Source: Candidatus Gastranaerophilales bacterium (GTDB taxonomy: Bacteria; Cyanobacteriota; Vampirovibrionia; Gastranaerophilales; Gastranaerophilaceae). From it: DNA of 60,775 nt. Below are positions 29,529 to 37,077 of the stretch, one piece after another. The notes under the pieces were generated by a model. That model was not told where the DNA came from. It saw nothing but the letters and a program-made list of their open reading frames with translations, and ran no database searches. Numbering within the stretch: position 1 is the first letter of the stretch; the number at the start of each line of letters is the position of its first letter. The DNA lies in assembly GCA_947630535.1 (NCBI GenBank), contig CANRHZ010000007.1, positions 1-60,775 on the forward strand, in the 5' to 3' direction. The translations under genes were made by a program, and so were the position numbers.

Positions 29529-31487
29529 TTATTTGTTACCGAAAGCGATTGTAACTCTTTCTTTGGGGTTAACCCTTGAAATTCTGTTACCTGAACCGTC
29601 TACAAGATAGGTAAGTTCATCTGCGGTATTTTGGAATAAGCCCATAGTACCTGACAAGGCAGTTCTTGTAAGGTCAATAGGAGCTTTAATGGTGGTTTTA
29701 ATGCCATCACCGTAGCTTCTGAATGCACCTTTAAAGTTGCCGGATATAATTTCTCCGGTACCTGTACCGGCCTGATCAAATAAAGCTTCAGATGCGTTAC
29801 CTAAACCTACGAGCATACCGCCCACCGTTCTTCCTACATTACCTAAGGTTGAACCGACAAAGGTAAACGGCATTTCTATTAATCTTACAAGTACATTCAT
29901 ATCTTTGCGTTTTTCAACACGTGCGGTAAGTACTTGTTTCGGAAGTGCCTGCTTACATCCGTCGCAGCCGATAATTTCGGTAAATGCAAGTTTTAAACCG
30001 CCGTCATCACATTTAGAAGGTCTCATTACTTCGGTTACTTTACCGTTTACACGGCTTCCTGCGGGGTATGTAACTCCGTTAATCGTAATTTCATGGCAAG
30101 TTTCAGCCTGAAATCTTTCGCCAACGTTAGCGTTTTTGGAGTTGATTATATCTTTCATTTTTAATGATAGCGTAGGTATGCAAACGGGTGTTTCTTTTTC
30201 AACAAAAGTTGCCTGAGTTGGCCCTATGGCAGTTTTTGTCGAATCGCCGTTAACGTCATATCCGCCTGCCACTCTGATATTTTGAAGCATAGATGAAACT
30301 TCTGCTCTTGTGGCTTTATCTTGAGGTCTGATTTTGTTTGTTGCGTAACTGTCTTTAAGAGCACCGTTGTCAATTGCCTTTGCAACATGTTCTTTTGCCC
30401 ATGAAGGAACAAGGTTTCCGTCCTGATATTTTCCTAATATTTCATCTGCCTTGCAAGCATCCATAGGGCAATTTATACCTTTTGATATTATTGTCATAGC
30501 TTCAGATCTTGTTATGGGGCTGTTGGGGTGGAATTTACCATCGGGATGCCCTGCTATCATATCTGCTGAAACACCTTTGTTTATTGCTTCGTAAGCCCAG
30601 TGGTGTTTTGACACATCACTAAAGTCACCTGATTGTGTCATTGGTGTATTTTCAAGATTGTATCCTTTAACCACCATTGAAGCCATTTCGGCACGTGAGA
30701 TGTTTCTGTTTGGTTTAAATAAATCGTCGGGGTATCCGACTACTACGCATTGGTCGGTTAATCTGTTAATGTCCTCGCTTGCCCAATAACCGTTGGGAAC
30801 ATCAGGGTATTTTTGCCCCATAATGCCTGACATGTTTGCAGCTGCACCTGTTTGGCATCCGCAAGAAGGTTTAAGGGGTTCCATTTCTTTATAAATTGCC
30901 TTCATTGTATTGGGCGATTGAATGTTGGGTTCGGGGCAGCAATCAGTTTTAGGAAGAATTTTTTCGTCTAAAATCGGAGCTGCGGCACCCGTTAAACAGT
31001 TGTCCTCTATGGGAACACCCGAAATTTTAGTTGCAAGATTGTTATCTTTAATTGTTGCGGAATTATTCAATTCGCCCACAACCGCATTATTTGCAGGGGA
31101 ATAAACCGCACCGGGGTATGCGTATGTTTGAAGATTCATATCCGATTTGTATTCATAGCATCCTTGCTGGCATTTCGATTTTTCGCAATTGCAATCGTTA
31201 GTTGGTTGTTTGCACGTGTCGCATGGAGCCGCTGCCCCCGTCGAACACGGGTCGCACTTTTTTGATGAGAAAATATTAATCCTGTCAAAAAAGCTTTTTT
31301 TCTTACATTTACAAGCATCCATCTTTTTATGGCACTTGTTGCAGGTTGCAACATTGGGTGTTACAATCTGTTGAGATTCAACGGGGCAAGCTCCGCCCGT
31401 TGCGCATGCAGCAAAGCTTACAGGAACCGTAAAGGCAAAGACCGTAGCTGCTGCCGTTGCTGTTAGTAAAAATTTTTTAATGGTCAT
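29529..31487 (-). CDS. SLH-domain surface protein with Cys-rich N-terminus
   Basis: A 652-residue secreted protein. A signal peptide (1-27, ending SFA-A) is followed by a Cys-rich region (about 27-120) with CxxC pairs (CNKCHKK, CDTCKQ, CDPC). Short motifs C-x-TG-A-A/C-P recur (CATGGACP, CSTGAAAP, CLTGAAAP, CQTGAAAN). Three SLH domains at about 230-400 contain YPDVPNGYWASEDINRL, FSDVSKHHWAYEAINKG and WAKEHVAKAIDNGAL; SLH domains bind pyruvylated cell-wall polymers. The C-terminal 220 residues have hydrophobic Gly-rich stretches (TVGGMLVGLGNASEALF) and could anchor it in the outer membrane. Good ribosome site AAAGGAGG. Preceded by a structured leader. Confidence 0.85.
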   Translation of the reverse strand: MTIKKFLLTATAAATVFAFTVPVSFAACATGGACPVESQQIVTPNVATCNKCHKKMDACKCKKKSFFDRINIFSSKKCDPCSTGAAAPCDTCKQPTNDCNCEKSKCQQGCYEYKSDMNLQTYAYPGAVYSPANNAVVGELNNSATIKDNNLATKISGVPIEDNCLTGAAAPILDEKILPKTDCCPEPNIQSPNTMKAIYKEMEPLKPSCGCQTGAAANMSGIMGQKYPDVPNGYWASEDINRLTDQCVVVGYPDDLFKPNRNISRAEMASMVVKGYNLENTPMTQSGDFSDVSKHHWAYEAINKGVSADMIAGHPDGKFHPNSPITRSEAMTIISKGINCPMDACKADEILGKYQDGNLVPSWAKEHVAKAIDNGALKDSYATNKIRPQDKATRAEVSSMLQNIRVAGGYDVNGDSTKTAIGPTQATFVEKETPVCIPTLSLKMKDIINSKNANVGERFQAETCHEITINGVTYPAGSRVNGKVTEVMRPSKCDDGGLKLAFTEIIGCDGCKQALPKQVLTARVEKRKDMNVLVRLIEMPFTFVGSTLGNVGRTVGGMLVGLGNASEALFDQAGTGTGEIISGNFKGAFRSYGDGIKTTIKAPIDLTRTALSGTMGLFQNTADELTYLVDGSGNRISRVNPKERVTIAFGNK

Positions 31488-31525
31488 CTTTCCTCCTTTA
31501 TTAAAGAAATATTTTGTTTAATGCA

Positions 31526-31572
31526 AAAAGTGCATAATTAACATTTAATCTTTAAATGAATTATGCACTTTT
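31526..31572 (-). terminator. Long hairpin with T-run upstream of the SLH gene
   Basis: Arms AAAAGTGCATAATT (31526-31539) and AATTATGCACTTTT (31559-31572) are perfectly complementary, and inside them CATTTAA and TTAAATG pair as well, leaving a 3-base loop. On the minus strand the hairpin ends in TTTTT, so it can terminate transcripts 39 bases before the SLH start. It may end the transcript of the 31699 gene or attenuate SLH expression. Confidence 0.7.
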
Positions 31573-31590
31573 AAAATATTATCTTCATTG

Positions 31591-31678
31591 CCGATAGGGG
31601 CTATCTTTATGGATTATCTTATTTATAAGTTATTGTACTTTATGCTAAGCTTTAAACTTGAACCCCTTAATTTATCGG
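31591..31678 (-). ncRNA. Candidate structured RNA upstream of the SLH gene
   Basis: CCGATAGGGG (31591-31600) can pair with CCCC (31663-31666) and TATCGG (31673-31678): 6 + 4 base pairs closing a domain of about 88 bases, with a 6-base bulge. The enclosed part holds smaller inverted repeats such as CTTATTTATAAG. A terminator-like hairpin follows on the minus strand before the SLH start, which is a riboswitch-like layout. No known riboswitch family fits. It could instead be the 3' untranslated region of the HEAT-like gene. Confidence 0.4.
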
Positions 31679-31686
31679 AATAAAAG

Positions 31687-31698
31687 GAGGTTTATTTA
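31687..31698 (-). promoter_or_regulatory. Possible anti-Shine-Dalgarno element in the SLH leader
   Basis: On the minus strand CCTCCTTTTATT lies about 200 bases upstream of the SLH ribosome site AATAAAGGAGG and is complementary to it apart from one extra T. If both are on one mRNA, they could pair and hide the ribosome site. Confidence 0.3.
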
Positions 31699-32025
31699 TT
31701 ATATTGTTCCCGTAATTTCTTGGATAATATAGTTTGCAACCCAGGAGAAATTTTTGTTTGAATCAGATAAATTCTTAAGCGGGGAAATTGCAGCCTCTCC
31801 AATTCTAATTAAGCTCATTGCGCTAATTCCTCTTTGAACACCTTTTGAATCGGTTAATTTATTGATGAGAAAATCTATAGCATCAGCTCCAAAGCTAACT
31901 ATTTCGTTTTCAATCATGCTCTTTTGGGAGTTATCAGCCCCTTCAAGCTCTTGAAAAAGAGATGTTAAACGTGATTTTATATTGTTGATTTCCAAAATGG
32001 AACCGTTTGTCAATACTGCCTGCAT
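31699..32025 (-). CDS. Small HEAT-repeat-like protein
   Basis: A 108-residue protein with a helical pattern of the HEAT/PBS-lyase type in its C-terminal half: FGADAIDFLINKL, GVQRGISAMSLIRIGEAAISPLKNL. Such short HEAT proteins occur in cyanobacteria but the function here is unknown. Ribosome site AAAGGAG is well spaced. It is divergent from eno, with an 18-bp palindrome between the two. Confidence 0.65.
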   Translation of the reverse strand: MQAVLTNGSILEINNIKSRLTSLFQELEGADNSQKSMIENEIVSFGADAIDFLINKLTDSKGVQRGISAMSLIRIGEAAISPLKNLSDSNKNFSWVANYIIQEITGTI

Positions 32026-36374: not shown

Positions 36375-36404
36375 AAGTTTTATAGCTAAAAATCGAATTT
36401 AAAT

Positions 36405-36434
36405 AAAAAATGCACTTTAAAAGGTGCATTTTTT
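36405..36434 (+). terminator. Intrinsic terminator after the CxxC gene
   Basis: AAAAAATGCAC / GTGCATTTTTT, perfectly paired, loop of 8, with a T-run. It ends 16 bases before the ribE ATG, so ribE must be transcribed either by read-through or from a very close start. Confidence 0.85.
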
Positions 36435-36450
36435 ATGGTATTTTTTTCTT

Positions 36451-37077
36451 ATGTTTACAGGTTTAATTGAAGATATAGGAAAGATTTATAAGATAGAAAC
36501 CTTAAATCAGGGAAAGAGGTTTTTTATTGAGCTTAGTATGGATACCTTTGAAATTAAAATCGGGGATTCAATTTCAATAAACGGGGCATGCCAGACGGTG
36601 ACGGAAAAAAACGGCAAAATTTTAACCTTTGAGGCTATGTTTGAAACTTTGAAAAGAACAAATTTCAACTGTTTAAAAAAGGGAGATTTTGTTAATATAG
36701 AAAGAGCAATGCTTTTAAATTCAAGACTGGACGGGCATTTGGTATCGGGACATGTTGACCTTACCGCTAAATTAAAACACATAAAAGAAGAAGGTATTGC
36801 AAAAGTTTTCGGGTTTGAATCCGACACTTCTTTATTGGTTGAAAAGGGCTCTGTTTCAATAAACGGGGTAAGCTTAACCGTAAGCGGGCTTTATGAATCG
36901 GGTTTTGAAGTTTCACTTCTTCCCCACACTCTTAAAAACACCAATTTTAAATACCTTAAAATCAACGATTACGTTAATATTGAATTTGACATGATTTCAA
37001 AGTATGTAAAAAAAATTCTAAAAAAAGATGAAAAATCAAAAATAACGGAAGAATTTTTGATTGAAAACGGTTTTTAA
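36451..37077 (+). CDS. ribE: Riboflavin synthase alpha subunit
   Basis: Dismutates two 6,7-dimethyl-8-ribityllumazine molecules to riboflavin. The 208-residue protein begins MFTGLIEDIG, the invariant family start, and repeats the lumazine-binding domain: first half GDSISINGACQTVT and DGHLVSGHVD, second half KGSVSINGVSLTVSG. An in-frame ATG at 36424 lies inside the terminator, so 36451 is the start; no ribosome site is evident. ribBA follows after 17 bases. No FMN riboswitch is present in the short upstream gap. Confidence 0.93.
   Translation: MFTGLIEDIGKIYKIETLNQGKRFFIELSMDTFEIKIGDSISINGACQTVTEKNGKILTFEAMFETLKRTNFNCLKKGDFVNIERAMLLNSRLDGHLVSGHVDLTAKLKHIKEEGIAKVFGFESDTSLLVEKGSVSINGVSLTVSGLYESGFEVSLLPHTLKNTNFKYLKINDYVNIEFDMISKYVKKILKKDEKSKITEEFLIENGF

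Follow-up and report, generated by a model that had tools for sequence, protein, structure and literature searches.

A conserved promoter-like element upstream of an SLH-domain protein gene in Gastranaerophilales probably shares its bases with a terminator of the neighboring gene

The DNA upstream of an SLH-domain envelope protein gene in a Candidatus Gastranaerophilales genome probably carries two signals on the same bases. Based on comparisons between genomes, the region appears to contain an order-wide promoter for the SLH gene and, in the genus of this genome and three related genera, a terminator for the HEAT-like gene located just upstream. The sequence analyzed is a contig of 60,775 nucleotides (contig C7, hereafter the window) from a genome of 1.85 Mb assembled in 72 contigs.

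The SLH gene encodes a protein of 652 amino acids, and the Pfam domain SLH (PF00395) was detected in three stretches of this protein (E = 3.9e-31). The co-directional upstream ORF encodes 108 amino acids and presented no Pfam family over the cut-off; "HEAT-like" is our own label for it. The two genes are separated by 211 bases, occupied by the element studied here, and they were found linked in the genera g1 (the window's genus), g22, g47, g52 and g3. Searching the source genome for further copies of the region returned none, except for a self-match of the hairpin and short AT-rich matches. An earlier sequence-only reading had named several elements between these genes, and a sequence check confirmed that all of them are present and that all lie on the minus strand. 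The features of the locus are listed below in the direction of transcription.

31699-32025, minus strand: HEAT-like gene (108 aa), an ORF upstream of the SLH gene and co-directional with it
31679-31690, minus strand: anti-SD CCTCCTTTTATT, complementary to the ribosome binding site, not conserved
31591-31678, minus strand: closed domain, composed of CCGATA (31678-31673), GGGG (31666-31663), CCCC (31600-31597) and TATCGG (31596-31591); the operator dyad forms its 3' side, and its pairs are not conserved as aligned
31612-31617, minus strand: third half-site ATAATC (family consensus ATAGCC), 13 bases upstream of the left arm of the dyad, from the logo and the rows
31587-31604, minus strand: dyad ATAGCC-N6-GGCAAT, predicted activator site centered near -42.5, from conservation and the logo
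31583-31588, minus strand: weak -35-like hexamer ATGAAG (T2, G3 and A4 of TTGACA), 17 bases before the -10 (ATGWWT in the logo)
31526-31572, minus strand: hairpin with A4/T4 flanks and then T, putative intrinsic terminator of the HEAT-like gene, overlapping the -10 and the start site; arms AAAAGTGCATAATT (31572-31559) and AATTATGCACTTTT (31539-31526)
31560-31565, minus strand: -10 element CATAAT, also part of the 5' arm of the hairpin, at a fixed 21-22 bases after GGYAAT
31551-31553, minus strand: predicted transcription start (A) in the hairpin loop, 7-9 bases after the -10, a purine in the genus-weighted logo
31492-31499, minus strand: ribosome binding site (SD) of the SLH gene, AAAGGAGG
31487-31485, minus strand: start codon ATG of the SLH gene
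29529-31487, minus strand: downstream gene, encoding the SLH-domain envelope protein (652 aa), from the ORF and Pfam

Relatives were found through their SLH protein and belong to Candidatus Gastranaerophilales, one of them being a Candidatus Galligastranaerophilus. The protein was matched (E ≤ 1e-20) in 57 of the 58 relatives searched, some rows representing SLH paralogues, and 49 upstream regions with a readable start codon were retrieved from this set. We observed that a two-part element is common to the Gastranaerophilales: a dyad ATWRCC-N6-GGYAAT(G), an interval of 21-22 bases, then (N)ATAAT. The pattern GGYAAT-N21/22-NATAAT (that is, GGYAAT-N22/23-ATAAT; one region presents GCTAAT) was found in 44 of the 49 regions, whereas dinucleotide shuffles of the same regions gave 0.1 on average and never more than 2; this figure is not an independent test, as some of these sequences had served to define the pattern. 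The element was not found in the other five regions, four of which are L107-L110. An independent search across the order, with the left half-site added to the pattern, matched 152 of 286 genomes, whereas the backward control gave 11 hits by our own count. In families of the class outside the order, the element was absent save for a few scattered hits, four of which correspond to one shared sequence.

The spacing inside the element is nearly constant within each genus (21 bases in 45 rows and 22 bases in 79 rows, over 124 rows), whereas the distance from the element to the SLH start codon ranges from 72 to 270 bases. The genus-weighted logo of the 124 rows reads AAATAGCC, followed at +13 bases by RRATAACC, at +13 bases again by GGYAATG, and then by unconserved filler and (C)ATAAT. 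In the source genome, a regulon search allowing up to three mismatches yielded 43 hits, relative to 34 for the control, and the full motif was found only once without mismatch. The -35 position is occupied across the rows by ATGWWT at 17-18 bases from the -10, which is a poor match, and a promoter scan returned no promoter-like site on the SLH strand of the region, the candidate SLH promoter included. Transcription typically begins a few bases (6-9) after the -10, and we placed the predicted start by this rule. To our knowledge, no promoter has been mapped in Gastranaerophilales. The sequence-only reading had rightly noted that there is too little room for a promoter between the hairpin and the start codon; the candidate promoter lies instead upstream of the hairpin and inside its 5' arm.

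We first expected the dyad to form an RNA hairpin, as the window and some of the relatives look compensated. This was excluded by counting over 74 distinct rows: the arms ATWRCC and GGYAAT formed 326 of 444 possible pairs, relative to 323 with shuffled right arms (111 of 1000 shuffles were as good as the observed arms), and A-C is common at dyad position L4-R3 in many genera. A leader peptide (ATG AAG ATA ATA TTT TAA after GGCA), which we judged by eye, was also dropped because the gap is 20 bases in some genera and 21 in others. Because the spacing is fixed, the filler unconserved, the distance to the start codon variable and the dyad devoid of covariation, we interpret the element in terms of a promoter and protein-DNA contacts. 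These properties suggest that the order-wide element is most likely a promoter with a class II-like activator site and with its -10 at CATAAT.

In class II activator-dependent sigma-70 promoters, a site of the CRP or NtcA type is centered at -41.5. The SLH element resembles these promoters in its dyad with a six-base gap near -42.5, its poor -35, its recognizable -10 and its fixed spacing. However, the half-site ATWRCC/GGYWAT matches no site that we can name, an extra half-site is found 13 bases upstream, and the own genome contains a single full match. A regulator of the CRP type was sought and not found: the source genome presented no match to the CRP-family HTH (PF13545), which was detected in 14 of 14 controls. 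OmpR and RpaB regulate envelope promoters in Proteobacteria and Cyanobacteria. The SLH element is similar to these promoters in that its sites are stacked upstream of a weak -35 before an envelope protein gene, and four hits to the OmpR-type winged helix (PF00486) were found in the source genome, none of them tied to the dyad. In contrast to the HLR1 motif, the element has no TTACA direct repeats, and its half-sites are 13 bases apart with the last one inverted. In a paper on Melainabacteria, RpaA/RpaB homologues are reported and an S-layer-like protein is inferred (PMC3787301).

The hairpin shows a different pattern of conservation. A scan of the window placed it, at -17.4 kcal/mol, with the strongest hairpins of terminator type. 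Shuffles of the whole 214-nt region fold far less well than the region itself (z = -5.4), and most of this signal comes from the hairpin, because the domain upstream of it folds weakly alone (z = -1.86; 12 of 200 shuffles as good). Among nine genomes of the window's genus the hairpin is kept, with 97.6% of cells paired. It is confined to four related genera, namely g1, g22, g47 and g52 (clade A), where it is present in 36 of 36 rows. When the fold was computed through the -10, all 33 distinct sequences of clade A presented z < -2 (median -5.8), as compared to only 2 of the 84 distinct sequences outside this clade (median 0.1).

The two arms of the hairpin change together. Compensating changes include AGTGC/GCACT, AACGC/GCGTT and AATGC/GCATT, and the full arm pairs AGTGCATAAT/ATTATGCACT, AACGCATAAT/ATTGTGCGTT and AATGCATAAT/GTTATGCATT differ at both arms. 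The 5' arm always retains CATAAT, bearing in mind that the g22, g47 and g52 rows were selected with a pattern that requires ATAAT, and the 3' arm drifts through U-G pairs. Over the eight distinct arm pairs, the sense strand presented seven G-U against two A-C. This is the pattern expected if the relevant RNA runs in the direction of the SLH gene and includes both arms, and such an RNA must begin upstream of the hairpin. Together, the compensated arms and the sense-strand G-U pairs indicate selection on RNA pairing. These results bear out the sequence-only reading on one of its main points: the long hairpin with a T-run is real, conserved in the genus, compensated and terminator-like. The T run is short or poor in two species of g22 (L157 and L161).

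The distribution of the hairpin follows that of the upstream gene. All 30 loci and all 36 rows examined in clade A have a co-directional upstream ORF, and the HEAT-like gene precedes the SLH gene in 33 of 36 rows by tblastn, a set in which the 36th listed locus repeats one genome (27 of 30 by clustering). The loci of clade A without it are L018, L231 and L240; three rows of g22 have lost the HEAT-like gene and retain the hairpin. Outside clade A, among the loci examined, the HEAT-like gene was found upstream only in L023 (genus g3), which possesses its own terminator (-12.4 kcal/mol) and no promoter hairpin. Within g22, the promoter hairpins lie between -8.7 and -14.1 kcal/mol in the 7 rows that have a second terminator and between -14.0 and -20.9 kcal/mol in the 12 that do not. 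The hairpin is thus weaker when a second terminator is present (one-sided Mann-Whitney test, uncorrected for kinship; P = 3e-4 in g22 and P = 9e-5 in clade A, where one of the eight "second terminators", in L016, looks spurious). In 19 of 46 regions outside clade A, a co-directional upstream ORF was accompanied by no detected terminator and no promoter hairpin, based on crude ORF calls.

In the window, the hairpin at 31526-31572 is the first terminator-like hairpin after the HEAT-like gene, and it has the makeup of a terminator: a stable stem with a T run behind it, placed where a co-directional gene ends. Other strong hairpins of the window share the form with an A run and a T run and stand at the 3' ends of genes. 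Because the hairpin tracks the co-directional HEAT-like gene, is weaker where a second terminator exists and has the form of the hairpins at gene 3' ends, we read it as a putative intrinsic terminator of the HEAT-like gene whose 5' arm is common to the -10 of the SLH promoter. It resembles Rho-independent terminators in its perfect stem, in the A-tract before and the T-tract after it, and in its position behind a co-directional gene, but differs from the usual ones in that its stem is AT-rich and its 5' arm holds the -10 of the next gene.

Another hairpin with an A run and a T run (AAAAAATGCACTTTAAAAGGTGCATTTTTT) was observed at 36403-36436, in the divergent gap between gyrB (minus strand) and the riboflavin synthase gene (plus strand). 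It stops about 15 bases before a likely ATG at 36452, and it is not an ordinary terminator, since it lies upstream of both genes.

We propose a mechanism in which a dimeric regulator would bind ATWRCC-N6-GGYAAT (31604-31587, with the third half-site 13 bases upstream) behind the weak -35 and would activate a sigma-70-type promoter of the SLH gene with the -10 CATAAT (31565-31560). Transcription would start near 31553-31551 and yield a 5' UTR of about 65 nt. The palindrome at 31572-31526, whose 5' arm holds the -10 and whose loop holds the start site, would terminate the transcripts of the HEAT-like gene. Read-through RNA arriving from upstream would carry both arms and be terminated, and RNA initiated at the SLH promoter would carry the 3' arm alone and escape, because its start site lies in the loop. 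Going further, and with confidence that falls a little below even, this could be a self-insulating promoter: the same bases would serve as the -10 of a surface protein gene, conserved across an order of non-photosynthetic relatives of cyanobacteria, and, in the RNA of the neighbor, as the 5' arm of a terminator that the gene's own RNA, starting in the loop, could not form. The regulator, not described to date, would then have essentially a single target in each genome.

The main alternative is that of the sequence-only reading, which proposed a riboswitch or attenuator: a cis-acting leader RNA in which SLH transcription begins no later than the end of the HEAT-like gene and a closed domain senses a signal and decides between termination and hiding of the SD. 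We consider it unlikely. The region does resemble riboswitch and attenuator leaders (cis-regulatory families of Rfam) in its terminator-like hairpin ahead of a ribosome site, and the compensation and sense-strand wobbles establish this hairpin as an RNA structure. However, the hairpin occurs only in four genera and goes with the upstream gene, and the block conserved across the order is promoter-like and does not covary. The region reached no family of Rfam 15 at gathering scores, and relaxed thresholds returned only microRNA-like and other chance matches. The promoter scan, moreover, offers no site from which a longer SLH transcript would start. The letters of the closed domain are in place, but its pairs are not conserved as aligned: 45% of cells are paired in the genus alignment, relative to 44% when the partner is slid by three columns, and the nearest relatives lack them. 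For most pairs of species in the genus, the stretch above the operator shows only about 40-57% similarity, unlike an aptamer. Likewise, the anti-SD is indeed complementary to the SD, but of the nine genomes of the genus only two have the exact match, at different distances, and it occurs in 3 of 49 regions overall, one of them with only 6 bases. The best remaining support for a leader RNA is the pairing of the upstream segment with its own operator. In the nine rows of the genus, the segment of ~70 bases preceding the operator pairs with it better than its own shuffles do (mean z = -2.8, relative to 0.1 in the other rows tested), and swapping operators among eight species of the genus gave pairing as good in 10 of 40320 permutations (4, 6 or 8 of 720 with six representatives, depending on their choice; 3 of 120 with five). 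This pairing is found in genus g1 only (31605-31698 and the upstream segments of L010-L017), where the sequence is barely conserved. It may come partly from extra half-sites (ATTGCC resembles ATWRCC) and partly from real RNA structure in the 3' UTR of the HEAT-like gene.

Three other explanations appear improbable. The palindrome at the -10 could be a DNA operator for a repressor of the SLH promoter, since it spans the -10 and the start site and its arms are symmetric in seven of the nine species of the genus. Yet the distance between the arms varies base by base (10-21 bases inside ATAAT), which is unusual for a dimer site, and the positions at which g22 and g47 lose the symmetry are precisely those that still pair in RNA as U-G, leaving this explanation with a slim chance. 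Hairpins near the 5' end are often found in the leaders of abundant envelope protein mRNAs, and an ompA-like stability element of the SLH mRNA, starting just upstream of the hairpin, would fit the -10-like GATAAT at 31583-31578 in the window's species. Other species of the genus have GATAAC, GATAGC or CATAGT in place of this hexamer, whereas CATAAT is kept, and the hairpin tracks the upstream gene; we regard such an element as slightly less probable than a repressor site. The lowest probability goes to an alternative-sigma promoter using GGTAATG as its -35 without any activator. No parts of the element vary less than GGYAATG and ATAAT, but conservation extends to the left half-site and to the third one 13 bases further upstream, a gap of 20-21 bases behind GGYAATG would be long in a two-part promoter, and the own genome contains one occurrence.

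If the order-wide element is indeed an operator-promoter, its nearly single-copy occurrence before a conserved SLH protein would provide a handle on the control of the cell surface in uncultured gut bacteria. The overlap of a promoter with a terminator would allow a compact genome to insulate a strong gene from its neighbor without extra DNA. These results also call for caution, in that a covarying, terminator-like hairpin located before a start codon does not necessarily belong to the leader RNA of that gene.

Two additional patterns were observed near the SLH start. In L184-L227 and other rows outside clade A, a small hairpin is found 10-30 bases before the SD (e.g., GGGTTTTTAGTAAAAAGCCC); it is seemingly compensated between species and occurs in many genera without the promoter hairpin. 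Finally, many f1 genera outside clade A present a conserved AGTWTNAGTTTGTTTTTT just after the -10, at the first transcribed bases.
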